A stretch of DNA of 64,000 bases from Suillus spraguei (taxonomy: Eukaryota > Basidiomycota > Agaricomycetes > Boletales > Suillaceae), in NCBI GenBank assembly GCA_016800925.1, contig JABCPU010000152.1, forward strand, positions 86,913 to 150,912. Direction: 5' to 3'. Shown here piece by piece: positions 26,936 through 62,280 of the stretch. The notes under the pieces were generated by a model. That model did no database searches, had not been told where the DNA came from, and worked only from the letters and a program-made list of their open reading frames with translations. Both the position numbers and the translations under genes were made by a program. The stretch's first letter is position 1, and each line of letters starts with the position of its first letter.

Positions 26936-29900
26936 ATGACTTCCCCTAGCAGGCACAATCGTTGTCATGCTATCTATACCAATCAGAACAGATCTGCTGC
27001 TCCTGTACAGCCAAATTTCATGCCAGCTGCGCCTGTTATGCAGCCTCCTCCTTACTTTGCACATCAACCGCTGCCAGTTGCGCAATATCCTGGCTTGCCA
27101 CGAAATGCAATCGAACATGTGTTGCATGCTCATCGTCCTCCTGTTGATTATAATGCACATTTGAATGACCAGACAAATGCTGCTCACAACAACAGACATC
27201 GTCAGTGTAATGTTCGTCGACAGCAGGACAGACAGGAGATAAGACAGCAGGCTCAAGCAGAGCTCATGGCAGCACAGATACAGCCTCCGCATATACCTCA
27301 TATTCCTAATGAACCTGTTCAGCCTATTCAACCTGCACCTCCTGTTCAGCCTGTTCAACCCGCACCTCCTGTGCCTCCTGTGTATGGTCCTCATAACTTT
27401 GATAATCCCCTCCAATACTTTGCACATCCTGTACAACCTGTACCTGCACCACCTGAACCTGATAATTATGACCAGTTCAATGTTCAGTTTCGGCAGCAGC
27501 TTGAGGCAGAGCACATTAGAAATGACTTGCTTGAAAGACAAGCACAGAATGAATTTCTTCACCAGCAGCAGCAGATTCAGCATCAGTTGCAGCAGCAAGA
27601 AGCTGAGTGTGTCCGTAGACAGGCCCAGGATGATCTGGCAGCCTTTCACTTGATGCAGTAGCAAGCTGCACAGGGAAACGGAAACCATGCTTTGCACCAG
27701 CAGCAAATAGCTGAGATAATTGCTAGACATGCTGAGAATGCTCGCTGTGAACAGCTGCAAGAAGCTGATTTGATGAATCGACGGCACTGAGGCCCTCAGA
27801 ACTTTGATGATCCTCACATGCTTAATCCTATGCCACCCAGAAATAATGTACCAGCACAGGAGGCATTTCGAAGACAGCAGATCCAATGGCAATTGCGCCA
27901 GCAAGAAGCCAGGAGGATCAATAGAGAGGCTGAGGAGGCTCTTCATCGACAGCAGCAGCAAGTTCAGCAACAGCAGATGCAGCAGCAGATGCAACAGCAG
28001 ATGCAGCAGCAAATGCAGCAGCAAGAAGCTGGGCAGGTCAATATACAGAGTCAGCATGCTCTGGAACAGCAGCAGCAGGAACAGGAGCAGCACGATAGGC
28101 AGGATCGGGATCGTCTACGAGCAAGCCAACAAGAAGAAGCACGTCACAACCATGAGGAGCAGAGAGTTCATGAGTGGCAGGAGCGTCTTGAGGAGGCACT
28201 ACATGAATATAACGATCCATTATCTGAACAGCAACATGCAGAAGATGAGGAGAGAAGAAAAACCCAGCAAGAAGAACAACACCAAGAGCGTGAAGCAGAG
28301 GATGACCAGCGTATCAATCAGGTCATTCCTGTTCCTGATGGAGCCCGAGCATATACGGAACCGATAAACCATCACACTCTTAGTCCTCTTAACATAGAGT
28401 GCCCCAAATGTCATGCACTTCACTTTGCATGCGAAAGACTATCCAACTCCTCTTTATGAAATCCTCGGTTTGGTATGTGCTGCTTGCAGGGCCAAGTCAG
28501 CCTTCCCCCATTTCCAGCATGGCCACCTGAGCTAGAGCGGGCCTATGCAGACAGAACATTTGTGTCCAAAATTCGCCAGTACAACAGTGCTCTTGCATTT
28601 ACCTCTGTTGGTGTCAATATCGAGGATCATGCTCTTCAAGGATCTGGCCCAAATGCTTTTCATATTCATGGTTCTCTTCACCATCTCATGGGCAGTCTTT
28701 TACCTCCAGAAGGTGTCCAGCCTTCATACGCTCAACTTTATATATACGACTCTGAAGAAGCCACCAACATATGCACCACCCGCCCTGGAAATGAAGGCCT
28801 CAATCCTCGGATTCTCAGAGATCTGCATGATATGTTGCATCGCAACCACCCATATGCTGCTGTGTATAAGCAGGCATATCAAGTCATGCGAGAGAAGCCT
28901 CCAGAGGAGCAGACAGACCTTTCTATGCTTATTCATTTCCAGCCAGGCACAGATGGTCAAAGATATAATCTTCCCACTGCCAATGTTATTGCTGGAATTC
29001 TTCCTGGAGACGGATCTGAGGAGGTGCATCATGTACACGACATCATCATATATTATCAAGGCGGTCCGCTTCGGCGCATAAGTCAACTTAGCCATGCATA
29101 TGCCTGTCTTCATTATGTCACTCTCTTTCCTAAGGGAGAGGATGGCTGGGACCTCTACATTGATATGATCATTCCTGTGGGTGGGCGTGCACGTGCAAAA
29201 AAGTGACTCAGCTGCTGTATTACGCCTTTCGACTTCATCCCCGCCCCCCTCGCCTGGATCACAATAACATCTTTCATGGTGAAGGCTGTTCCAGCAGTAT
29301 GTGGTTGATGCTTGGGCATCAATCAAGCAGAGCAGACTCAACTGGATAAGAAACAATCAGAAGAAGCTCAGGGCTGACTGCTACCAAGGGCTGACAGATA
29401 ATGTTTTCAATGATGGAGTGGGCAATTTAGCTGAGACAGGTCGTTCCATAATCCTTCCCCCCTCTCATAATGGAAGCCCTCAGTATATGCAGCAGCTGCT
29501 GCAGGACTCCCTGGCCATCTGCCGTGCCTGCAAGAAGCCTGATCTTTTCCTGATGATGACTGCCAATGGAAGCTGGCCTGAGATTACTGAGAATCTCCTT
29601 CCAGGTAAAGAGACATATTTGATGCATTATTATGACATGATCCTGACAAGTTGTCTTATGTAGGTCAGAGTGCTGTGGACCATCCAGACTTGGTTGCTCG
29701 CGTATTTTACCAGAAGCAGAAGGCTCTCTTGAAGAAGGTTCACAATGGCTACTATGGCAAGGTTGCGGGATTGGTGTACACCATTGAATATCAGAAGTGT
29801 GGCCTGCCTCACATGCACCTTCTCATCTTCCTGGATCCAGATCACAAGATTCGCACTGTGGAACAGATCGACTCCTTCATCTCTGCCCAAATCCCTGACA

Positions 29901-31998
29901 GAAATGTCCATCCACAACTCTATGAGGCCATACAAAAATACATGCTCCATGGCCCCTGCACTATGCAGCGTTGCTTGGAGAATGGAAAGTGCAAGAAGCG
30001 TTATCCAAAGTCTTTCACTCCCCAGACATTGATGAAGGAGGACGGCTATCCAGAGTATGCCAGGCCAGACAATGGTCGCACCATCCAAAAAAATGATGAC
30101 ATCTTCATCAACAAAGATGTCGTTCCCCACCCCCCGCAACTGCTGGTAGAATTCAACTGCCACATCAATCTCAAAGTCTGTGCTTCTATCAAGTCGGTCA
30201 AATACATCCACAAGTACATCTACAAGGGAAATGACCGTGCCACATTGGAGATGACAGGACCAGTGGATGAGGTCAAAACCTATCTTTACTCCAGATACAT
30301 CAGCTCCACTGAGGCCGCATGGCACATCTTTGAGTTTGGAATGCACCTTGAATGGCCCTCTGTCTATCGCTTGCCGGTCCACCTCCAAGATGAACACATG
30401 GTATTTTATGATCCTGAGGATATTGCACAGGATGTTCTTGAGTGCGCAGCAACCAAGGAGACTTGCCTCACTGGATGGTTCAAGGCTAACTCCAATAATG
30501 TCTTGGTGGCTGCTGGAGCCCACGACCACCTCTACCAGGACTTCCCCTCAAGATTTGTATGGAACAAGATGGCGTGGAAGATATGCCAACGCGGAATAGC
30601 GATTGGAAGGATGTACTCTGCTGCACCTGGCTCCAGAGAGCACTTCTACCTGAGATTGCTTTTGACTGTAGTAAAAGGTATGGTCCTGATGTCAATTTTT
30701 ATCAATAAAACTTACCATGTCTTCAAGGGGCCACCTCCTATGAGAACCTTCAGACAGTTGACGGTGTTTTATGCAACACTTTCAAGGAGGCATGTCAGCG
30801 CAGGGGTCTGCTTGAGGATGATAATGAATGGATCCAGTGCTTGCAGGATGCCTCTCATATGCATATGAGCACTGGACATTGCATGCGTAACCTCTTTGCC
30901 ATCATCCTCATACACTGCAACCCTACAGACCCCAGTGATCTTTGGAACCACTTCAAGGAGAATCTCTGCGATGATCTGCGCCACCGCCTATCACACATCC
31001 CATTCAGCATCCCCAACCCTACAGATAAAGAGGTTCATGACTATGGTCTCTATCTCATTGATGGCATGCTCCACAAAAATGGAAAGTCTTTGCAAGCGAT
31101 CCCTCAGATGCCTGTACCTCAAATGGCAGCAAGATGGGGGGCCATGCAGGGAAATCAGCTCATTGCTGAGCAGCTCCAATATAACCAGGAGGAGCTCCAG
31201 CAGATGGTGAACCCAGGAGTGCTTTCTCTGAATCAGGAGCAGAGGACAGTCTTTGATGCAGTGGTCAATGATGCCATGCAACGTAATGAACAAAGACCTG
31301 GACATTCATACTTTGTCCACAGTGCAGGTGGATGTGGAAAGACATATCTCTGCAAGCTCATTGCTTCAAAGCTCCATGCTGAAGGCAAGATTGTCCTATG
31401 CGTGGCTTCCTCTGGAATTGCTTCTCTCCTCCTGCCAGGTGGATGCACGGCTCATTCTCGATTCAAAATTCCAATTCCCATCAATGAGGACAGCTCCTGC
31501 AACATCAAGAAAGGAGATGTCATGCATGAGCTTCTCAAGGCCACCTCCCTCATCATCTGCGATGAAATTCCTATGCTACACCATCACATCCTGGAATGCC
31601 TTGACCGCTCATTGCGTGACCTTCTGAACGTCGATGCTGATTTTGGAGGAATGACAATGCTCTTTGGAGGAGACTTCAGACAGACCCTGCTGGTGGTGCC
31701 TCATGGATCCAGGGAGCAGATAGTGGGCACTACATTTTGCAGATCTCACATCTGGCCAAGGCTTTGCATCTTCCACCTAAAGACAAATATGCGGCTTGGC
31801 CAAGACCCCGCCTCTGATGAATTTGCAAAGTGGCTTCTTGAGATTGGAGCTGGGAAGGGCACACATGCAGATGGAACGGTCGCCCTTCCAATTCATATGC
31901 GCTGCCCTGACAATGATATCCGCTCTCTCATCAATGCCCTATACTCTCCTATTCTGCTCCCTGGGCATCCTCCTGTGAATGATTCCTTCTTCCTGGAA
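26936..31998 (+). pseudogene. Helitron Rep-helicase, nearly complete but broken
   Basis: Rolling-circle transposase. The N-terminal part is Pro/Gln-rich with coiled-coil QQMQQ runs (26,936-28,330) and a zinc-finger-like CPKCHALHFACERL continuing NPRFGMCCLQGQ. Then comes the Helitron N-domain and the HUH nuclease: CGLPHMHLLIFLDP (HUH) at about 29,800 and KYIHKYIYKG (paired Tyr) at about 30,200. The Pif1-type helicase has [11 protein letters not shown] (Walker A), IICDEIPML and FGGDFRQTLLVV. Two introns are visible: 29605-29663 (GTAAAG..TAG) and 30678-30727 (GTATGG..AAG), both restoring frame. Stops at about 27,659, 27,788 and 28,457 and 1-nt indels near 29,200 and 29,295 show decay. It is cut at 31998 by LTR sequence, losing motifs V-VI. 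Confidence 0.88.
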
Positions 31999-31999
31999 T

Positions 32000-32232
32000 A
32001 TTCCAGGTAAAACCCAGTAAGATTAAAGTAAAGTATACAAGCATAATACAATGTGCTTAAATAGGTCAATATGTGCGCATGGATCAAGAGAGTCACGAGA
32101 ATGTAAGTGCGTATCCAAAGATGGAAGGTAACTATAGTACAGATGCATTGAGCATATGAGTCAGGGTCACATTACGTAATATACAAAGTAAAGGAGATAA
32201 GAAAATGAATAGGGGCACATACGACTGTAACA
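32000..32232 (-). repeat. Truncated family A LTR
   Basis: Reverse-oriented 5' half of a family A LTR. From the right it starts TGTTACAGTCGTATGTGCC and runs to ACTTTAATCTTACTGGG and CTGGAATAT, then joins the Helitron helicase. The right side abuts a 5'-truncated gag at 32233. It therefore marks a rearranged junction between two unrelated elements. Confidence 0.85.
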
Positions 32233-37928: not shown

Positions 37929-38536
37929 GACTCCACCATCCCTGCCGCAGAAGATTGAGTACAATCTCTGCAAAAGATAAGAGAAGAAGCAATCACCTGT
38001 CACAACATCGCCATGCAGACAATGGCTGAACGATCCCGAGGAGATAAGTACACTCCATGGAAGATAGGAGATAAGGTTTGGCTATCAGCAGCTAATCTTA
38101 GACTAAAACTTCCATCTCGGAAGCTTGCACCAAAACGATATGGACCATTCCCGGTTATCAAAGTCTTATCTCCTATCACGTTCAAACTTCGACTCCCAAC
38201 ACTGTGGAAGATCCACCCCATGTTCCATGCTTCTGTCTTATCATCCTACAGCAAAAATGATGTGCACGGTCCGAACTTCCTAGAACCTCCACCTGACATC
38301 ATTGAAGAAGAAGAAAAATACGAAGTTGAAGCTATTCTCTCCCACAAAGGCACTGGTAGTCGCCGAAAATACCTTGTGACATGGAAGGGATACTCATTTG
38401 GAGATAACAAATGGCTTCCAGAAAAGAACTTGAAGAACTTCGCCCGAATCCTGAATGCTTATAAAAAGCAACATTCTCTTTAATCATTCTTCAGTCAATC
38501 AACTGCACAAGCACCTGATCAACTAAACCATTCAAA

Positions 38537-41390
38537 ATGTCCTTCCCCACTGCCTACATCACACCATCACTGTTGCTTACAATGATTCTGACTCAGATGC
38601 TGAAAACTATGGTACCCTTTCCAGAGAAATCAATAACACCTCCTATGTTGAAGCCGCCCTCTTATGCGAGGGACACACCCTTGAAATTGAAAGAATCCTT
38701 ACTGAAAGAGGCGCCTTCCCTACCTTACTCATTGTCAATGCCATTCGCTCTGCTGCCCTCATCGAAACCATCGCTAAAGAGCTCACTGATATTACACAAT
38801 GTCAACAAATCCTACACTTACAGAAACGCATTCGCGCTTATGGGATGCTTCTGCTTCCCCATTCTTTTACAAATGATGCTGAGGAAGCTATTCACATTGT
38901 GGCCAAACACTGAGCAGGTGTTGCTCAACCTCCCTCTCTGCAAGGAGATACGGCAATACTTCCAGTCCCTCCACCCATTCAATTGTGCACTCATTCTAAT
39001 ACTGCTGCCTTTGCTGGCCTATACACTGCTGTTCAGGAGATTTGACAGATCACCTCCGCCATTGTTGAAACTATACAACAATCAGTCAATGAAACTAGAG
39101 AAGCCCGAGGACTAGTTGAAGAAGTCATTTCAGACATACAAAATACCACAGCCACCTTAGCATCCCCATGTACTCCATCTCCCATTGAATGAACAACTTC
39201 CCCACCCTCAACTATCACTTCCTACGTTCACACTGCTTGGCTTCATGAACCATGCACCAATGAACAATGCAAAGCTGCTAAAGAATTAGGAATCCTGGTC
39301 ACTGAGTTAGTTGTGCTCGGTCCCCATCTCAGAGATCTTAATATTTATCCTCCAATGGCCATCCTGGCATCATTTGGGCCAATGAACCCTGTTTCACCAA
39401 TCCTCATAAAAGACTTCAGTACCACCTCACCCTCTTCCTCTGATGAACTCTTGTCAGCCACTGAACGCGCAATTACACCTGACCTTCCAGTCTCCGCATG
39501 TTCCTTCACACCTGCCCAGCAAGCAAAGCTTAGGCAGGATCATAGTTTTGCTTTAGGATGTATGACACAGAGAAAAAGGAAAGAAGCACACTCATTCTAC
39601 CAGTCCATCCCCCATCGTGTCACCATCGCCACTTCACGCATTGGTTTCTAACCCTGATGTTATGACCATGCAAAACCAGAGATTAGTAAGAAGTCCTGGT
39701 CTTACATGGGGTTGTACCGGAGGGTTGTAAAGTCAAAGGGGCTTGGCCTCAGCTCGTACGCTGTGCCCCTTACCCGAGTATGTGCCCTTAATTTTGGATG
39801 AAGTCCAAGGGAGAGTTCTGGTGAAGTCCGGATGGAGGGTCCGGACGAACTCTAAGGCAGGATAGCTCGACAGAGCTCTGATGGACTTCCGGATGAGTGC
39901 GGGAATGCGCCGGAACAATTTCCGGAAGATAGGGAGTAATGGTAACACTACTGGAACAAGCTCCAAGTAGAACGGATGAAGGATGGACGCTGGACAAAGT
40001 CCAGGGCAGGATAGGAGCAGAGCTCTGGAGGGAAAGATGATCCATAGATGTCAGAGGATAGGATAGGATGGATCTGGAGGACTAGGGGTCCGAAGGTCGG
40101 AGCTCAGAGGAGGAGCAGGAGCAGGAGCAGAGGAGCAGAGGAGCAGAGGAGCAGAGGAGCAGAGGGAGCAGAGGAGCAGATGATCGGATGAGCATAGCTC
40201 TGTGGATCTTAGAGGAAGTGTTGGCTACTAGAGAGGAGTAGGTCCAGATATAGTGTAGAGATAGTATAGACTACTCCGGACAAGGTCCGGAATAGAAACA
40301 GACAGTATAAGACTACCAAAGGTAGAGTCGGAGGTGAAACAGATGATAGACGGAGATGGACGAAGTCCGAAAAGATTATAGGACATAGGATCAAAGCTCC
40401 AGCCTGGGAGTGATCCAATAGGCCTGAGTCGGAAGCTTACAAGGGCTGGAGCCCAAGTGCAAGAACAGAAACAGAGTTATATAGACATGATAACAGGATA
40501 CAGAGTAATCAAAGGAATATACAGAAATAGGAACAATGAATCAGACTGAGGTCTGCAGGAGTTGTACTACAAGTTTATATACTGTAGGTAGCATGCCGGA
40601 AGGCAAGTAAGGATAGTCCGAGGCTATGTTTGAGGCATTGCGGAACACAAGGCTATGAACTCGGGAATAAGACTTGTACGAAATATCTTATCAAGACAGA
40701 AGTCAAGATAACCGAAAGCCAGAGGTGCAGAGATAACCGAAAGCCGGACACAAGTATTAACCTAAAAGGAGTAACACGCAGGTGTGCGGGAATAGTTTCA
40801 GATATGAGCATGGATCGGATATGGACATGGATCAGATATGAACATGGATCAGATGGGTGGATCAGATCGGATGGATGGACTGAGTCGGATATGGATATGG
40901 ATTAGATATGGATGGATATTGATTGGAGTGGATGGGTGGATTGGATATGTGAGCTGGATTGGATGGGTGGACTAGGATGTATGGATTGGGTGTCCAGATG
41001 TCCATGGATCAGACCTGAATGTACGTATATGACACCTGACCAAAACATGAAATGCCGTATTTGTAAAAACTATGGGCATCGGCAGAAGAACTGCCCAGGA
41101 TATCAGTGTCAAGTTTGCAAAACTGGGCCCCCACTCATCTTTCCATCTATTGTCCTCAGCATCTTGGAGACCCACCATTTACACTTACTTGGAAGGATGC
41201 AGGGTTCTATGATGCCCTCCATAGGTGGGAGCAGTATCTCATTAACCGTCAACGAAGGAAAGAAGGTCGTTGAGCCTGAACCATAGCAGCAGAAGAAGCT
41301 GCTTATATGCTTGGAGGGAGTGCTGCTGATGAGGATGTCGCCAACTACGACAACTATGACACCATCTATGATGCCAATCATAGTGAGTAA
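38537..41390 (+). pseudogene. Third ORF of element 2, broken by LTR C
   Basis: Begins MSFPTAYITP 53 bp after the pol stop, as in elements 4 and 5. A small frameshift follows at once; homology continues in the neighbouring frames (LCEGHTLEIERILTERGAFP, LHLQKRIRAYGMLLLP, LGPHLRDLNIYPPMAI, DELLSATERAITPDLPVSA). At 39,657 a 1,377-bp family C LTR is inserted. After it comes the zinc knuckle CRICKNYGHRQKNC and the end TYDNYDTIYDANHSE, with TAA at 41388-41390 inside a hairpin. Several stops are present. See the intact copy at 51963-53432. Confidence 0.85.
39658..41034 (+). repeat. Solo LTR, family C
   Basis: 1,377 bp, TGTTATGACCATGC..GTATATGACA, with a perfect 5-bp duplication CCTGA (39653-39657 and 41035-41039). 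It contains a GAGCAGAG-type simple repeat (about 40,095-40,175) and a GGATATGGA repeat (about 40,805-40,990). It shares a block around GGCTTGGCCTCAGCTCGTAC and the end TATATGACA with family B, so B and C are related. Confidence 0.9.
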
Positions 41391-48915: not shown

Positions 48916-48952
48916 TTACCCCCTTATTACATTGAAAGTCACCGACTTTCAA
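48916..48952 (-). promoter_or_regulatory. Hairpin and polypurine tract of element 4
   Basis: TTGAAAGTC-ACC-GACTTTCAA (48932-48952 on the plus strand) is a perfect 9-bp stem carrying the third ORF's stop. Next to it is the reverse complement of AAGGGGGTAA abutting the LTR. The two outer base pairs differ from elements 2 and 5 but remain paired. Confidence 0.7.
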
Positions 48953-50419
48953 ACATCTCTGTTGTTGTCATAGACGGGATCATAGTCGTCATAGTTAGCG
49001 ACGTCTTCATCAGCGGCACTTCCTCCTAACATATAAGCCGCTTCCTCTTCTGCTACAGTCCTTGCCCGTCGACCTTCTTTTCATCATCGACGGTTAATAA
49101 GATACTGTTCCCACCTACGCAGTGCATCATAAAATCCATCGTCCTTCCAGGTAAGCGTAAATGGAGGTTCCCCACAATGCTGAGGGCAATAAATGGACAG
49201 ATGGGTAGGAGTGTGTCGCAGACAGACTTGGCATTGATAGTCGAGACAATTCTTTTGTCGGTGTCTGACGATGCCACAGAATCGACATTTCATGTTTTCA
49301 TCAGTGTTGGAAGTGGACATGCATAATGGTGATGGTGAGATAACAGGTTTAGGACTGGTGGATCTAGCACGCTTCTTCCCTTTCTGTCGTGTCATGCGTT
49401 TTAAAGCGAAGGCATTGTCACATCGAAGCTGCGCCTGTTTGCTTGCTAGTTAGAGTGTACACGGATATGGGAAGGTCAGGAGTAGTCCCCCTTTCAGCAA
49501 TCGTAAGAAGTTTGTTGGAGGAGGAAGAGGAGGTGATGCCGAGGTCTTTTACTAAGACCGACAAGACAGGATCCATTGGACCAAATGACAACGGGATAGA
49601 CATGGGAGGGTGTATGTGAAGGTCACGAAGTCGAGGACCGAGCACTACCAGATCAGCGACAGGGATTCCTAATAGTTTTGCGGCCTCACACTGTTCTTCT
49701 GTGCAAGGTTCATAGAGCCATGCGGGATGGTCATGGGAGACTGTGACGGGGGGCGGTGAAGTCGGTTGTTCGACAGGAGATGGGGTTCAAGGAGATGCAA
49801 GGTCAGCTTGCGTTTGTTGTAGATCAGTGATAGCTTCTTCGACTAAATTTCTAGCTGCTCTGGTTTCAGTGACTTATTGTTGGATAGTTTCGACGACTGC
49901 GTTAGTGAGCTGCCCGATCTCTTGGACAGCAACGCATAAGCCAGCAAGGGCATCAACACTAGAATACACACGCAAAGAAGAGGGTGCTGGAATAGGAAGT
50001 GGCGTATCTTCCTGCAGAGAGGGAGGTCGAGCAACGCCTTCTCGACGTTCGGCCACGATGTGAATAGCTTCTTCAACATTGCTTTTAAAAGAACCGGGAA
50101 GCAACAACATAGCGTAAGAACGAATGCGTTTTTGAAGATGTAGGAAGCGTTGATGGTATGTGGTGTCGGTGGTTTCGTTGGCTGTGGCTTCAATGAGAGT
50201 GGCAGTACGGATAATGTTGACGAGGAGGAGGGCTGGGAAGGCACCTCTTTCTGTGAGGATTCTTTCAATTTCAAGGGCGTGTCCTTCACATAGAAGGGCG
50301 GCTTCGATGTAGGAAGTATTGTCGATTTTGGTGGCAAGGGTTCTGTAGTTTTCAGCATCAGAGTCGGAGTCATTGTTGGCAACGGTGATGGGGGTGATAT
50401 AGGCAGTGGGGAAAGACAT
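48949..50419 (-). pseudogene. Third ORF of element 4, lightly broken
   Basis: Starts MSFPTAYITPITVANNDSDS, with an open N-terminal 181 codons ending VVETIQQ at a stop (49,872; a Ser codon in element 5). Later blocks are in neighbouring frames: LGPRLRDLHIHPPMSIPLSF, MTRQKGKKRARSTSP, the zinc knuckle CRFCGIVRHRQKNC, CQVCLRHTPTHLSIYC, TLTWKDDGFYDALRRWEQYL, and an acidic end YDDYDPVYDNNRDV with TGA at 48949-48951 inside a hairpin. See the intact copy at 51963-53432 for domain order. Confidence 0.85.
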
Positions 50420-51457: not shown

Positions 51458-51930
51458 TGTTACGAACTGGGGTGGCATCACCAGCGACAGTGAAAAGACA
51501 CAGACGGTCTGCTGGGAGTTCTTACAATGTCCAAAAGAGGACAAGGTGAAAGTACAAGGAACGCGTTCCGAGTACGATCAAGGGTTAAGCCTCAAAGACA
51601 AGTCTAAGAGGTATCCGCGAGAATAGAGACTAAGGCTAAGGAGTGCTTAGACTTAGAGACGATTCAAGACGACTTAGGTTGGAGACCTAAGCGAAGGAGA
51701 TTCCAGGTAAAACCCAGTAAGATTAAAGTAGGGAAACTACTACAAGTACTCTGTGCTTAAATAGGCCAATATGTGCGCACAGACCAGATAACCGTGAGAA
51801 TGTAAATGCGTATCCTAAATAAGGAAGGCATGTATCGTACAGATGCGTTGAGCATATGAGTCAGAGTCACGTTACATAATATACAAGGTAAAGGAGCAGA
51901 AAATGAATAAGGGGATGTACGATTGTAACA
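51458..51930 (-). repeat. Family A LTR, 3' LTR of element 5
   Basis: 473 bp in reverse orientation, very similar to its partner at 57772-58246 (only scattered changes visible), so element 5 is comparatively young. Outer flank GTCAA; the partner's outer flank is ACGAA, so no target duplication is left. Confidence 0.93.
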
Positions 51931-51966
51931 TTACCCCCTTTTTATACGTAAAGTCACCGACTTTAC
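51931..51966 (-). promoter_or_regulatory. Hairpin and polypurine tract of element 5
   Basis: GTAAAGTC-ACC-GACTTTAC (51948-51966 on the plus strand), a perfect 8-bp stem containing the third ORF's stop, next to the reverse complement of AAAAAGGGGGTAA at the LTR edge. Confidence 0.7.
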
Positions 51967-53432
51967 TCATCTTGGTTCTCATAGTAAACCGGGTCATCAC
52001 TCCATTCGTAGTCTTTGTCAGCAAAGGACCCACTCCTCATATACGCGGCTTCTTCCAAACCAGCGCGTCGTTTAAAGTCCCTTTTCTTTTCTGCTTGAAT
52101 CCGTTCATCGTCAAGCTGCTGCTCCCAAGCGTGGAGTGCGTCATAGAATCCCTCGTCTTTCCAAGTTAACTCGAAGGGAGGGGGCCCAACTCGTTTTGGG
52201 CAATAAAGGGACAGATGAGTCGGTGACCAATATCTGCAAACCTTGCACTGATATTCCACACAATTCTTTTGACGATGTCCTAGCAATCCACAGACGCGGC
52301 ACTTCATATTCTCGTCAGGATTGGAATGGACTTTGCGTAAGGGAGACGGAGAAATGATAGGCGTGGGGCTAGTGGATCTGGCGCGCTTCTTTCCCTTATT
52401 CTTCTTCATACATTTTAAGGCAAGGGTGTTAGCTCGCTTGAGTTGCGCCTGTTGAGCGGGGGATAACGTGTATGCTGACATGGGGAGGTCCGGGGTAACT
52501 GCTCGTTCAGCAGCCGCAAGAAGTTCGTCGGAAGAAGACGAGGAAGTTATGCCAAAATCTTTTACTAAGACCGGCGAGACAGGGTCCATTGGACCGAATG
52601 ATGATGGGATAGACATTGGGGGATGTATATGAAGGTCGCGAAGTCGGGGGCCGAGTGTTATCAACTCAGCGGTAGGGATACCTAGTAGTTTAGCGGCCTC
52701 ACACTGCTCTTTTGTGCAGGGTTCATACAGCCAATCAGGGCAATCAAGAGAGGTCGTGACAGGAGGTAGTGAAGCTGGCTGTTCGATGGGTGATGGGGTT
52801 CGAGGAGATGCAAGGTCTGCTTGCATCTGTTGTAAATCAGTGATAGCTTCTTCCACTAGGTTTCTTGCTGCTCTGGTTTCAGCGACTGACTGCTGGATGG
52901 TATTGACAACTGTATTGGTGAGTTGCCCAATTTCTTGCACAGCAGTGTATAGGCCAGCAAAGGCATCAAGACTAGAGTAGATGTGCGAAGGAGCGGGTGC
53001 TGGAACAGGAAGTGGCGTATCTCTTTGCGGAGAGGGAGGTCGAGCAACGCCTGCTCGACGTTCGGCAATGATGTGAATAGCTTCTTCAACATCATTCTTA
53101 AAAGAATCGGGAAGCAACAGCATAGCGTAAGCACGAATGCGTTTTTGGAGATGAATGAAACGGTGACGGAGTGTGATTTCTGTAGTTTCTTTAGCGGTGG
53201 CTTCGATGAGGGCTGCAGTGCGGATGATGTTAACAATGAGTAGAGCGGGGAAGGCACCTCTTTCGGTGAGAATTCTGTCGATTTCGAGGGCATGTCCCTC
53301 ACAGAGGATGGCGGCTTCGATGTAAGAGGTGTTGTCGATTTCTGCAGTAAGAGTTCCATATTGTTCAGCTTCAGAGTCGGAGTCGTTGGTGGCAGCGACG
53401 ACAGGTGTGATGTAAGCAGTGGGGAAAGACAT
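51963..53432 (-). CDS. Third ORF of family A: zinc-knuckle protein in the env position
   Basis: Intact 489-codon frame starting MSFPTAYITPVVAATNDSDS, 55 bp after the pol stop. Order: an alpha-helical N-terminal region (residues about 25-135: YGTLTAEIDNTSYIEAAILC, LTERGAFPALLIVNIIRTAA, LQKRIRAYAMLLLPDSFKND); a Pro-rich linker; a helical segment about 145-210; ACDxxx-free middle WLYEPCTKEQCEAAKLLGIP and LGPRLRDLHIHPPMSIPSSF; a Ser-rich stretch; a basic patch KNKGKKRARSTSP; a CCHC knuckle CRVCGLLGHRQKNC; a second Cys/His cluster CKVCRYWSPTHLSLYC; WKDEGFYDALHAWEQQL; and an acidic Tyr-rich tail. There is no signal peptide or membrane segment, so it is not an envelope protein. RNA or DNA binding is the plain inference from the knuckle and basic patch. 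No known family comes to mind. Two more copies: 38537-41390 and 48949-50419. Confidence 0.88.
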   Translation of the reverse strand: MSFPTAYITPVVAATNDSDSEAEQYGTLTAEIDNTSYIEAAILCEGHALEIDRILTERGAFPALLIVNIIRTAALIEATAKETTEITLRHRFIHLQKRIRAYAMLLLPDSFKNDVEEAIHIIAERRAGVARPPSPQRDTPLPVPAPAPSHIYSSLDAFAGLYTAVQEIGQLTNTVVNTIQQSVAETRAARNLVEEAITDLQQMQADLASPRTPSPIEQPASLPPVTTSLDCPDWLYEPCTKEQCEAAKLLGIPTAELITLGPRLRDLHIHPPMSIPSSFGPMDPVSPVLVKDFGITSSSSSDELLAAAERAVTPDLPMSAYTLSPAQQAQLKRANTLALKCMKKNKGKKRARSTSPTPIISPSPLRKVHSNPDENMKCRVCGLLGHRQKNCVEYQCKVCRYWSPTHLSLYCPKRVGPPPFELTWKDEGFYDALHAWEQQLDDERIQAEKKRDFKRRAGLEEAAYMRSGSFADKDYEWSDDPVYYENQDE

Positions 53433-53487
53433 TTCAAGATAGTAGTTAATCAGGTGCTTAATGCGAGTTGATTTGACTGAGGAATAA

Positions 53488-56400
53488 TCAGAGGGCGTGT
53501 TGCTTCTTATAAGCCTTCAAGATTCGGGCGGAGTTCTTTAAGTTCTTTTCTGGGAGCCATTCGTTATCTCCCGATGAATATCCTTTCCAGGAGACAAGAT
53601 AACATCGGCGAGTGCCGATTCCTTTGTGGGAGAGGATTGCTTCTATTTCATATTCTTCTTCTTCTTCTTTGATAATGTCAGGTGTGGTTTGGGGAAGTTT
53701 GGGCCGTGTACATCCATTTCGCTATAGGACGATAAGATGGAGGCGTGGAACGTGGGGTGAATTTTCCATTGCGGAGGGAGTTTGAGCGTGAACGTGATAG
53801 GAGATAAGACATCGATGATCGGGAACGTTTCACAAGTTCTTCAGTTTTGAATCTACCGGGGTGACCCGCGGTAGGATGATCATGATACCTTTTCAGGATA
53901 TCAGAGCGATGCGCCGGTGGAATATAGGCACGGTTTTTAAAATAGAGGACATTCTCCTCAATCTTCCAGTCAGAAAGTGCCGATTTCATAGGGGGAAGGC
54001 ACACGCCATCAAGGGCATCAGATGCCGTCTTGAAGACAGGGTCGTCGAGGGGGTCAGAGGATGACAGTACATCCTTCAAGTCGGTGTCAATAAGACGAAC
54101 GAATAGAGCGTCAGGGAGGAGGGTCTGGTCCTCGTTATCGTCTTTGCCAGAGTCATAATCAGGCCGGCGGGATAGTGCATCAGGCACTGCTAATTTAGTA
54201 CCTGCAACGTGATGCAGTTCGATGTTGTAAATAGACAAAATTAATTGCCAACGTGCTTGGCGACGGGTGAGCTTCTGTGCACTTCTAAAGTACAGAAGGT
54301 TCTTATGGTCGGTAAATACCAGGATGGGGTGTGGGTTTCCTTCGAGATAATGACGCCATTCGTTCAATGCCCGGATCACGGCAAGGAGTTCCCGATCAAA
54401 GATCTGGTAATTGCGTTCGGCGGGGTTCAAAGACTGTGAGAGGTATGCACATGGGTGATAAACACCATTCTCATCAGTCTGTAGGAGAACTCCGCCGTTG
54501 CTACAAGCGAAGCGTCGGTAGCAATGGCAAATTGTCGGGAAGGATCAGGGTTACAGAGTACTGGTTGGGAAGTGAAGCGTCGTTTCAATTCTTCGAAAGT
54601 GTCCATACATTCGGTTGACCATTCAAAGGCCTTATCTTTCTTTGTCAAATCGATAAGGGTCTGGCGATATCAGAATAGTGGGAAATGAATGTGTGGTAGA
54701 AGTTGCAAAACCGAGGAATGACCGAACATCTTTTACAGATTTCGGGATTGGCCATTCGGAGATTCCCTTGGTTTTGGCGGTGTCCATAGCAACTTGTCCG
54801 GGGCGAATTATCATTCCGAGGTATTCCACTTCTTCTGCATCGAAGGTGCATTTCTCCGGTTTCAAAACAGGTGTTCTTTTGTATTTTCATCAAAACTCGT
54901 CTAGTCCGTTCCAGTGTTCTGCCATAGTCGTAGAGAAAATCAGGATATCGTCCATATAGATAACCATCCATCCTTCATTGATTTCTTGTGAAAGGTACGA
55001 TTCATGTATGCTTGAAAAGTTGCTGGAGAATTGCAAAGGCCAAAGAACATGACGTTCGGTTCGAAGAGGCCGAATTCCGTGGTAAAAGCAGCTTTCCACC
55101 TATCGTCAGGATGGATGCGAATATTGTTATAGCCGGACCGGATATCCATTTTCGTAAAGAACTGCGCATTGTGAAGACGTGCGACAAGGGAATAGGGAGT
55201 GGGAGCGGGTAGGCGTTCTTTACTGTCCAATCATTGATGTAGCGATAATCTTGACAGGGACGCAATTCTCCACTCTTCTTTCCCACGAAGAAGAAACCAC
55301 TAGCTTGAGGTGATTTCGATTCTGAGATGAAACCTTTCGCAACGTTTTCATCGATAAACGTTTTGACGGCAGCGCGTTCTTTTTCCGATAGCGGGTAGAC
55401 CTTAGACGTGCGAGGAATAAAACCGGGTTTAGTGTCGATCCGATGGTCGATACCAGGGCGTTCGGGGGGTAGTTTGTTTAATCCATCTTTAGCAAAGACG
55501 TCTGCAAAGTCGTGCAAATAATCCGGGACCAATTCTTCGAAGGGCTTCTTTTTCTTTTCCTTCTCATCTGTAGCGAATTCCTGAGCTTTGTTACTATATT
55601 TTGGAGGAGGAAGGGGAATGTGAAGTAGTTGGAGGGTTGCTCGAGTTGAGAAGTTCCATCACGTGTCAGGGGTGTGTCCATGGATACTTCCTCTATGATC
55701 CTCATGCTGACTCCATCGGTATCGTATTCCACAAGAAATTCTCCATCTCCAAGTCGTAAGAGGAAATTTCACGTACTTCTGGCGCATGCCAGACGTCATG
55801 CATAGTGTCGAATTGGTCATCATCCTCTGTTGGGATCAACGAGGGCACGGGTTCTTCTTTATCGGGGATTTCTTCTATGGAAGCGGAAAGGGTTTTCGGG
55901 GGAACAAAGAACTTGGATAGTTTTGGTACGTTGGTGCTTCGCCCTGGGAGTTCCTCTTCCGTTTTCCTCTTTCCCTGTTTCTGTTCTTCTATTGGCCGCT
56001 GCTCAATAGGTTCTTGTCCGACCCGATACTTGGGTTCGGATTCATTCTTGCGTTTCTCTGCGCGAGGAATCGGTGATACCGCTCTTGGCAGCTGGACGCG
56101 TGGGGTGGGGTCTGTAGTACGTGGCAATCGTACTTCTGGTTCTGGGTCTTCAGGAACGTTAATAGGAGAAGCGATGAACGGTTTCGGAAGACAGGAATGT
56201 TGCCATCTGGTATGGTGGTTGAAAAGTCGGGGCAACCCATTCTTCTTTCGTTCTTCATCCAAATCGATTTCGATTTCATCAGATTTCTCTGTCCGTGAAA
56301 GGACAAGTGTTTCAGCAGCCCAATCTATAATTGGGTTCATTGCTCGTAACCATGGAATTCCAAGGAGGATTTGATCTCTTCTTCCTAGTTTAGTGATATT

Positions 56401-57571: not shown

Positions 57572-57771
57572 GGTTGATGATTCTTCTGATGAGTTATACT
57601 TTCTCGGTGCCTACACGCGCTGTCTTGCTGTCCGTCAGGGCTTTTCTTCTGTCAGGGGGCTTCCTCTTGACAATCTGCTCAGCGTACGTGTACGCTAGTC
57701 TGCTGATCTAGGCGATCAGGGTTCAGGGTCGAAGACTGGATAGTCAACGATCAAAATGGACTTTAATCTTT
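57572..57771 (-). promoter_or_regulatory. Element 5 leader: primer-binding site and palindrome
   Basis: Next to the 5' LTR the plus strand reads ACTTTAATCTTT (57760-57771), that is AAGATTAAAGT on the element strand, complementary to the LTR sequence downstream of its TATA-like TATTTAAG. The palindrome arms AGCGTAC..GTACGCT at 57681-57696 match the 20-bp palindrome in element 1, with a changed but still symmetrical centre. Confidence 0.6.
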
Positions 57772-58246
57772 TGTTACGAACTGGGGTAGCGTCACCAGCG
57801 ACAGTGAAAAGACACAGATGGTCTGCTGGGAGTTCTTACAATGTCTAAAAGAAGACAAGGTGAAAGTACAAGGAACGCGTTCCGAGTACGATCAAGGGTT
57901 CAGCCTCAAAGACTAGTCTAAGAGGTATCCGCGAGAGAATAGAGACTAAGGCTAAGGAGTGCTTAGACTTAGAGACGATTCAAGACGACTTAGGTTGGAG
58001 ACCTAAGCAAAGGAGATTCCAGGTAAAACCCAGTAAGATTAAAGTAAAGAATCTACTACAAGTACACTGTGCTTAAATAGGCCAATATGTGCGCACAGAC
58101 CAGATAACTGTGAGAATATAAATGCGTATCCTAAATGAGGAAGGCATGTATCGTACAAATGCGTTGAGCATATGAGTCAGAGTCGTGTTACGTAATATAC
58201 AAGGTAAAGGAATAGAAAATGAATAGGGGCACGCACGATTGTAACA
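57772..58246 (-). repeat. Family A LTR, 5' LTR of element 5
   Basis: 475 bp; TGTTACGAACTGGGG..GATTGTAACA on the plus strand, almost the same as 51458-51930. Outer flank ACGAA; the adjoining sequence belongs to a different transposon relic. Confidence 0.93.
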
Positions 58247-60870: not shown

Positions 60871-61235
60871 GTGCAATTGCAGAAGATGGCTGATAGGTAA
60901 AAACAGAAGGAACTCATCAGGGGCTGGAAGGAGTGGTGGCACCATGGTCAAGTTGTCAGGAACAGGTTGATACCTATGACAAGCTACTCCATCAGGCACC
61001 AATACCAGGTTGGAAGTTGCCAGCAGGCTGGAAGTGTCCTGCCCCACCCTCAGGAAACATTTTCTGATAGATTTCTCTTAGATTGATTATAATTTTGGCT
61101 ATCAAAGAATCTGAACTTTGTCATTTGAAAAATCATTTTATTTGTTTCAAAGCTGCTATGATCATTAGGATGCAGAGATGGGGGGACAGAAGAGCATGGG
61201 GAGGAGAGAATGAAGGCATGGGAGATGGGAGATGT

Positions 61236-61342
61236 GGGAGACGCAGGAGATGGGAGATGGGAGATGGGAGACGGGAGACGGGAGACGGGAGATGGGAGAT
61301 GGGAGACGGGAGACGGGAGACGGGAGACGGGAGACGGGAGAC

Positions 61343-61433
<91 letters not shown>

Positions 61434-61496
61434 GGGAGACACAAGACGGGAGATGGGAGACAGGAGACACAAGAGAGATGGGAGACAGGAGACACA

Positions 61497-61556
<60 letters not shown>

Positions 61557-61650
61557 GGGAGACAGGAGACACAAGACGGGAGATGGAAGACAGGAGACAC
61601 AAGAGAGATGGGAGACAGGAGACACAAGATGGGAGATGGGAGATGGGAGT

Positions 61651-61687
<37 letters not shown>

Positions 61688-61735
61688 CAAGATGGGAGAC
61701 AGCAGACTGGTAAGAGGAAATGAGAGACAGGAGAT
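61236..61735 (+). repeat. G-rich minisatellite, GGGAGAC/GGGAGAT/GGAGACA units
   Basis: About 500 bp of 7-bp units, with higher-order blocks: runs of GGGAGAT and GGGAGAC (61,249-61,350), then GGAGACA runs, then a roughly 115-120-bp block containing ACACAAGA interruptions that is repeated at least twice (about 61,435-61,500 and 61,555-61,630). All frames are open on both strands only because the unit lacks stops. The GGG-spaced stretches can form G-quadruplexes. Confidence 0.95.
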
Positions 61736-62280
61736 GGAACACTTGCATGATTTTGTTGTGTGACAACTTAATACTGTTGCCCCCTATCAAAACTTGACAC
61801 AAAAGATTTATTCAAGTTAATAGTTTGCAGTAAATAATTTAAAAAAATCAAAATCAAATGCAATGACATGAGGATGAGATGGGCAATATAAACTCACAAA
61901 GATGGTGATGTGGTACTTTTACTTCTGTCAAAATATTGGTCAAAGTTATAATTTATTTCAAAACCTATTCACCTGTTCATGGCAGGCCATCAGTAAATTC
62001 ACACATTGCTTAGCTTAGCTTTTTTGAGAAATTAAAACTTATTTACAACTTATTTGCGTTTATTTACTTGAGCGCGTTCAACAAAAAGTAGCGCGCGACA
62101 AACAAGTGTGATAATTAGTCGAAATGAAGCGTGCACCAAACAAGCGCAATAAGGCAGAGATAAGCCATCAAAAGGACACCTTCATCAATTCAAGCAACAT
62201 AAGTGAAGTAAGTGCTACATATACTCATTGCGGCTACTGTATTAATGAGACAGCATTAAGTACAGTCCATCATGGCAGCT
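61736..62280. other. AT-rich spacer
   Basis: No gene seen. It contains a lone CAGTAAATTCACACATTGCT (about 61,992), similar to the end of the MITE at 17171, and an AAACTTATTT..CTTATTTGCGTTTATTTACTTG tract. Confidence 0.4.

Follow-up and report, generated by a model that had tools for sequence, protein, structure and literature searches.

A candidate dual-coding accessory cassette in the env position of a Ty3/Gypsy chromovirus family of Suillus spraguei

This work describes a family of Ty3/Gypsy chromoviruses from Suillus spraguei in which the env position, downstream of pol, is occupied by a gene of the family's own, ORF3, that is under purifying selection. Codons 1 to 190 of ORF3 behave as if they also encoded a second protein, here termed ORF3x, in the +1 frame, and the constrained part would be the C-terminal half of ORF3x. 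We consider it probable that the env position harbors an accessory cassette that codes twice, with ORF3 and ORF3x both translated from a spliced subgenomic RNA, the latter by leaky scanning. The analysis is centered on a 64,000-nt stretch of contig JABCPU010000152.1 (hereafter, the window), to which all coordinates refer, and was extended to the remainder of the same genome (Table 1).

In minus-strand order, the element carrying the complete ORF3 consists of an LTR, a primer site, gag, pol with a terminal chromodomain, a 55-nt spacer, ORF3, a hairpin, a polypurine tract, and the second LTR. Downstream of the ORF3 stop, the hairpin leads into AAAAAGGGGG and then into an LTR beginning with TGTTAC; the ends of the element are TGTTAC/GTAACA, and no target-site duplication is visible in the 10-base flanks of the window element. 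The Pfam Chromo model matches the window copy at 38013-38483 (E = 4.5e-11), and an 81% match over 48 residues is present in the ORF3-intact element. By its Ty3-type Gag and chromodomain-ended Pol, the element is a Ty3/Gypsy chromovirus. Fungal LTR elements are usually regarded as gag-pol only, and the description of Ty3/Gypsy chromoviruses as encoding Gag and Pol only does not hold for this family, in which a third gene is present in at least 87 copies. The original prediction relied on one element of the window ("element 5") for a complete ORF3; the ORF is complete, but pol is broken in this element, in which the distance between LTR and ORF3 is ~0.86 kb shorter than in copy L010. In L022 and L026, pol is a single open frame (1363 and 1365 codons, respectively) alongside intact gag and ORF3. 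The 5' LTR is partly present in two copies and shares 99.2% and 98.9% identity with the 3' LTR of the same copy, over 251 and 185 nt; these near-identical pairs suggest fairly recent movement of the family.

Table 1. Coordinates of the chromovirus features within the 64,000-nt window
Feature	Position	Strand	Remarks
5' LTR	57772..58246	-	
TATA-like box TATTTAAG	58072..58079	-	
Predicted RNA start and self-primer ACTTTAATCTT	58035..58045	-	In 30/31 copies
Donor-like GACATT/GTAAGA in 5' LTR; predicted exon 1 end 57840	57834..57845	-	GT in 36/36
Primer site AAGATTAAAGT, complement of predicted RNA start	57760..57770	-	
gag, 279 aa	56732..57571	-	Retrotrans_gag match, E = 3.8e-10 (Pfam)
pol stop TGA and acceptor-like CTGATTATTCCTCAG/T; predicted exon 2 start 53476	53476..53490	-	Motif in 49/51
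ORF3, 489 codons, double-zinc-knuckle protein	51963..53432	-	ATG to TAA; dN/dS 0.107 over 30 copies
Candidate ORF3x, +1 frame, 167 aa from first ATG in window copy	52856..53359	-	Frame open up to and past ORF3 ATG
Basic patch KKNKGKKRAR, ORF3 residues 343-352	52377..52406	-	From sequence; partly kept in P0002
Zinc knuckle 1, CX2CX4HX4C, ORF3 residues 378-391	52260..52301	-	From sequence; pair kept in 29/30
Zinc cluster 2, CX2CX6HX4C, ORF3 residues 396-411	52200..52247	-	From sequence; also in P0002
Hairpin GTAAAGTC-GGT-GACTTTAC spanning ORF3 stop	51948..51966	-	
Polypurine tract AAAAAGGGGG	51934..51943	-	19 nt 3' of ORF3
3' LTR	51458..51930	-	94.3% identity to 5' LTR
Second ORF3 copy, broken (frameshift and stops)	48949..50419	-	+1 frame open to 49843
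Third ORF3 copy, broken, diverged (stops and insertion)	38537..41390	+	Indel links its ATG to +1 frame, 38537-39115

The hairpin was followed through 46 stretches (loci L009-L061), in which it lies over the ORF3 stop and immediately before the polypurine tract, with a loop of GGT or AGT. A stem of 6 to 10 pairs is kept in 39 of these stretches, while a mismatch beside the loop-closing pair is found in the other 7; the hairpin alignment covers 43 of the 46. Some stems show exchanged pairs, as in L018 and in the TGAAAGTC...GACTTTCA forms. Elsewhere in the window, a tandem array with a 14-bp unit extends for ~0.6 kb (61181-61765), and the retroelement cluster is adjoined by frames at 29651-32010 that we take to resemble a PIF1/Helitron helicase, parts of which are repeated at 47.7-48.4 kb.

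A third ORF between the chromodomain stop and the polypurine tract had been claimed for three copies in the window, one of them a complete frame of 489 codons. Both claims were confirmed: the spacer separating the pol/chromodomain stop from ORF3 measures 55 nt in the copy starting at 53432, 54 nt in that starting at 50419, and 53 nt in that starting at 38537, and the frame at 51963-53432 is complete on the minus strand. A six-frame search of the same genome (86.2 Mb) retrieved at least 87 near-full-length ORF3 copies at 85-100% identity, a lower bound, as the scored copies are the best of 2286 first-look candidates; 64 of the 87 are free of in-frame stops. The 30 intact copies analyzed gave a dN of 0.064 and a dS of 0.597, with a dN/dS of 0.107, far from the value near 1 that would speak against a maintained gene. 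Besides the window copy and 10 later loci, this set contains 19 of the first 20 loci, from which L015 was left out for a frameshift immediately downstream of its start codon; the copies were picked for a stop-free ORF3 and high protein identity, independently of ORF3x. Such a choice somewhat lowers dN and can hardly account for the tenfold gap between dS and dN. For the 9 copies with an intact gag, dN/dS is 0.106 in ORF3 and 0.071 in gag.

Among the 87 scored copies, 23 contain in-frame stops, and in 20 of these 23, the stops are TGA alone; C-to-T mutation of CGA codons, through CpG methylation or a RIP-like process, would leave this pattern. In a number of broken copies (38537-39115, L015, L043, L044, and L047-L050), an indel within the first ~45 codons joins the ORF3 ATG to the ORF3x frame, producing frames of 191-192 codons. 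The joined-start copies are partly an effect of the query, since the query has such a start itself.

For expression of the cassette, we examined the LTR and the region around the pol stop. The predicted RNA start, ACTTTAATCTT, begins 34 nt past the start of the TATA-like TATTTAAG, and its exact 11-nt complement, AAGATTAAAGT, is located one base past the end of the 5' LTR in copies covering that place. A self-priming signature of this kind is known for Tf1-type elements. Given this signature, the RNA should start at ACTTTAATCTT; transcription would be driven by the TATA-like box in the LTR, and the RNA would then prime itself; the self-priming mechanism is named in PMC2864245 (partial text). 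A donor-like site follows 194-206 nt after the predicted start. All 36 alignable LTR stretches have its GT (of 42 stretches, 4 cut short and 2 unalignable were left out), and the site reads GTAAGA in 29, GTAGAA in 4, and GTAGGA in 3 (GTARG in 32/36). The missing G before the GT and the four GTAGAA forms speak against a donor at this site. Just past the pol stop, YAGTCAA is found after a branch-like TYTRAY in 49 of 51 copies, and none of these 49 has an ATG between this motif and ORF3. By comparison with the fungal consensus, we take these donor- and acceptor-like motifs to be probable splice sites.

Splicing from GACATT/GTAAGA in the LTR to YAG/TCAA after the pol stop would remove the primer site, gag, and pol. 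In the resulting short RNA, the AUG of ORF3 would become the first AUG, and the next would be that of ORF3x, reached by leaky scanning. The AUG pattern is consistent with this arrangement: predicted exon 1 is ATG-free in 34 of the 36 alignable LTR stretches, the next AUG past that of ORF3 lies in the ORF3x frame in 30/30 copies, and all 34 AUGs within the first 125 nt of 30 copies are in the ORF3x frame, as leaky scanning requires (L015, W3, L031, L033, L035, and L037, which carry indels, were left out of a separate AUG test). The first ORF3x AUG shifts among copies, with an offset of 46, 73, or 100. No spliced copy reinserted in the genome was found with the one junction pattern searched, and a spliced RNA devoid of the primer site would fit this result. 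Readthrough or frameshifting from pol into ORF3 was ruled out on the grounds that both the length and the frame of the spacer vary among copies.

It is conceivable, though rather unlikely, that both genes are real and are expressed without splicing, either from an internal promoter or by ribosomes that reinitiate after pol or enter internally at the spacer. This account gains from the overlap of the acceptor-like motif with the pol stop codon, as a result of which part of the motif's conservation has another cause. However, the noncoding bases after the pol stop are also kept (YAGTCAA in 49/51) while the remaining spacer takes indels, and an exon 1 largely free of ATG is likewise at odds with it.

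The case for ORF3x as a second coding frame is built on stops, synonymous change, and codon phase. Stops appear in the +2 frame by codon 13-28 in the first 20 copies, whereas the +1 frame of these copies runs without a stop for 187-200 codons. The +1 frame proved open to codon 187-200 in 30/30 copies, 10 of them added after the frame had been noticed. A +1 stop can arise only from NTN codons. Columns of this type contain a +1 stop in any copy in 0 of 52 cases inside the overlap and in 18 of 58 outside (p = 2.5e-6), and polymorphic +1 stops alone number 0 inside and 13 outside (p = 1e-4), with the kinship of copies ignored in both tests. Kinship was handled by tree in simulations permitting only synonymous change along the 30-copy tree, with a ts/tv estimated from sequence beyond the overlap: on average, ~13 of the 30 tips acquired a +1 stop, and 1 of 6000 runs remained without any stop. 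When the tree had 20 tips and the bias was assumed, 0 of 6000 runs ended without a stop.

Synonymous change is reduced over the same region. In 38-codon windows to codon 190, dS was 0.44, 0.48, 0.37, 0.15, and 0.38, compared to 0.59-1.09 in the eight later windows (20 copies, kinship ignored; the 30-copy windows past codon 190 are saturated and give no mean). In a per-codon comparison of synonymous change (p = 8e-10, kinship ignored), a single break fits best at codon 173. Within the core, codons 90-172, the mean pairwise differences at ORF3 positions 1, 2, and 3 are 0.088, 0.023, and 0.140 (kinship ignored), as opposed to 0.089, 0.060, and 0.335 in codons 195-488, outside the overlap. Positions 2 and 3 are thus slowed in the core and position 1 is not. 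Since ORF3 position 1 is the third position of the +1 codons, the unslowed position is the one that would be mostly silent in the hidden protein. At codons 115-152, where dS is 0.15, the dN/dS of ORF3 reaches 0.44. Codons 10-89 are little slowed (position 3 at 0.283, versus 0.335 outside), and the N-terminal half of ORF3x appears little constrained.

These observations bear on two alternatives to a second gene. In the first, which we regard as improbable, ORF3 would be the sole gene. Most of its codons 1-190 would end in a pyrimidine, for example owing to descent from a host gene that was well expressed, and the +1 frame would be open by accident. The fraction of L/V/I codons ending in A or G is indeed 11% inside the overlap versus 37% outside, and openness is not rare when local codon usage is fixed: the +1 frame was open everywhere in 0.19-0.26 of simulations, a null that is not rejected, and in 0.06-0.33 of per-copy shuffles. 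If an open frame were selected for, the resulting bias would already be contained in nulls of this kind. As they are not rejected, openness alone would be compatible with an origin in codon usage, and it is the phase signal that carries the point. Codon usage alone accounts neither for a slowed ORF3 position 2 beside an unslowed position 1, nor for a rise in the dN/dS of ORF3 to 0.44 where dS is 0.15, nor for the placement of all early AUGs in one frame.

The second alternative, for which we see little likelihood, is an RNA element in codons 90-172 (a packaging, export, or splicing signal) that slows synonymous change. The lowest dS, at codons 115-152, falls within this interval. However, the slowing tracks the phase of the +1 codons and spares ORF3 position 1, which is not expected of a constraint at the RNA level, and an RNA element would not hold 186 codons free of +1 stops. 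An overlapping gene should have a second frame that is open and constrained beyond the demand of the first; the dS, phase, and stop tests are in agreement with a second gene by this standard, with the local-usage null standing as given above.

Genome searches with ORF3x returned 151 and 150 scored matches, 17 of the 150 in the second list containing a stop. Because these matches were picked by similarity to ORF3x, they are descriptive and constitute no test; L042-L051 were chosen in this manner and lie outside the 30-copy set. A protein search with the ORF3x alignment gave no relatives outside the same genome. Scoring in the protein searches with ORF3 and with ORF3x covered the ~8000 candidates with the most shared words, and relatives may have been missed.

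With regard to the ORF3 protein, the two zinc clusters and the basic patch named in the original prediction are present, while its helical N-terminal domain corresponds to a weakly predicted helix bundle. The CX2CX4HX4C ligand pattern of CCHC zinc-knuckle proteins is found in ORF3, and both zinc clusters occur together in 29/30 intact genome copies, in support of zinc knuckles of the nucleic-acid-binding type. Pfam knuckle models match ORF3 only under their cut-offs, and a PDB sequence search returned the Lin28 knuckles at E values of 0.29-0.37, which serves as a lead only. The structure model is poor (mean pLDDT of 48). Helices are predicted at residues 21-127, where, starting with residue 41, most ten-residue pLDDT means lie at 63-75, and at 155-208, where one long helix has ten-residue means of up to 73. 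Foldseek comparison of this weak query model to the PDB and to viral models yielded no fold match with an E value of <0.001, and nothing significant was retrieved from Pfam or NCBIfam. As such, the supposition that ORF3 belongs to no known family or fold held for the profile, PDB, and structure libraries searched.

One database relative was found, a 337-aa protein of Suillus variegatus (Boletales), P0002, that aligns to ORF3 residues 32-125 (32%) and 343-489 (36%) and contains both zinc clusters. With residues 368-470 as the query, no homologue was obtained among 31 candidates scored, and even P0002 was not recovered. An origin of ORF3 by duplication of gag was rejected: BLASTP against the element's own gag gave knuckle similarity only (E = 0.08), and the helix bundle has no fold match with an E value of <0.001.

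With regard to Env, ORF3 has no Env family match in Pfam and is hydrophilic by eye. That it is env-like, or a captured host gene limited to this locus, is scarcely credible despite its env position, given its zinc knuckles, where an envelope architecture would be expected, the ≥87 genome copies, and the relative in another fungus. From the double knuckles, the basic patch, and the helical domain, we infer that ORF3 is probably an RNA- or cDNA-binding accessory protein. It would most likely bind the RNA or cDNA of the element through the knuckles and basic patch, while the N-terminal helices would act in assembly or in contacts with a partner; the basic patch could double as a nuclear signal.

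The original prediction also stated that the third ORF has no membrane helix. With regard to the helices of ORF3, this appears to hold, but the +1 frame of that DNA would encode two hydrophobic segments. The ORF3x frame is laid out as a Ser/Pro-rich first half, NAFVLTLCCCFPILLRMMLKKLF, an amphipathic-looking stretch, and then LLRTSTLVLMPLLAYTLLCKK. Two hydrophobic peaks, with 19-residue means of 1.5-2.6, are present in 27/27 aligned sequences. In each of the three copies tried, the first peak stands out from synonymous shuffles (P = 0.002-0.028). For the second peak, the values are P = 0.018-0.06 in L022 and L027 and P = 0.13-0.14 in the window copy, where it is not above the shuffles. The ORF3x model covers the 193-residue frame (mean pLDDT of 47) and places low-confidence helices at residues 92-123 and 148-171. 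Judging from the hydrophobic core, ORF3x is likely a membrane-associated protein, most likely located in or on a membrane, and our guess is that ORF3 and ORF3x work together. We put forward as a doubtful extension that ORF3x might be a small, membrane-active stand-in for Env that moves particles or nucleoprotein across a membrane, either the nuclear membrane or that between cells or nuclei sharing a hypha or dikaryon, with ORF3 as a nucleic-acid-binding or RNA-export partner and both made from one spliced dual-coding RNA.

Extra genes beyond gag and pol are found in several other retroelements. Complex retroviruses have overlapping accessory genes (tat/rev and the pX region) expressed from spliced RNA 3' of pol. 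The two overlapping proteins are alike in this respect, but there is no sequence relation, and ORF3x is hydrophobic, not regulatory. With fungal self-priming chromoviruses of the Tf1/sushi type, the element has in common gag, a chromodomain-ended pol, and the 11-nt complementarity of RNA start and primer site; it differs in adding a third, apparently dual-coding cassette after the chromodomain. No domain is known to be shared by ORF3 or ORF3x and the extra ORFs of plant Gypsy elements. The latter (Retand and Grande) likewise lie between pol and the 3' LTR and are kept in many copies, but are often antisense (PMC11963269, partial text).

LTR elements usually encode two ORFs (PMC3248453, partial text). 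In bdelloid rotifers, LTR retrotransposons carry non-env ORF3s after pol, typically expressed from spliced messages (PMC5408684, partial text), and the present element is similar in having a post-pol third gene that is not a classical env. The rotifer ORF3s are GDSL lipases, DEDDy exonucleases, or coiled-coil or TM proteins, whereas a zinc knuckle or overlapping frame is not mentioned in the partial text of that source (PMC5408684). ORF3x is also reminiscent of sORF2 of the Drosophila MDG1 group, a small hydrophobic accessory protein of Env-less Ty3/Gypsy elements, described as a small TM protein replacing Env; sORF2 is 63-107 aa long with a single TM segment, frequently carries an N-myristoylation motif, and is mostly encoded upstream of gag (PMC11952523, partial text). 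Unlike fusogens of the sORF2/FAST kind, ORF3x has two hydrophobic peaks (27/27) instead of the single N-out/C-in TM segment of those proteins, and its alignment has no MG start (MGxxxS/T being frequent, not universal), the sequences beginning with MTPT, MELS, and similar. With the single TM segment and the MG start both missing, ORF3x may be at most an analogue of the sORF2/FAST proteins.

A zinc-knuckle ORF3 with an overlapping ORF3x cassette was not found described in the literature searched, in partial texts and with subscription journals mostly outside it, and the partial texts of PMC3248453, PMC2864245, and PMC2774666 contain no mention of such a gene in fungi. Non-env third ORFs are already known; new here is an extra 3' cassette of an LTR retrotransposon that is apparently dual-coding. 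In this successful family, the DNA of the retained accessory cassette seemingly codes twice, an economy familiar from complex retroviruses. If this is confirmed, fungal retroelement annotation has overlooked a class of proteins, since ordinary gene finders do not see overlapping frames; it would also become possible to test what a retroelement confined to its cell requires in addition to gag and pol.
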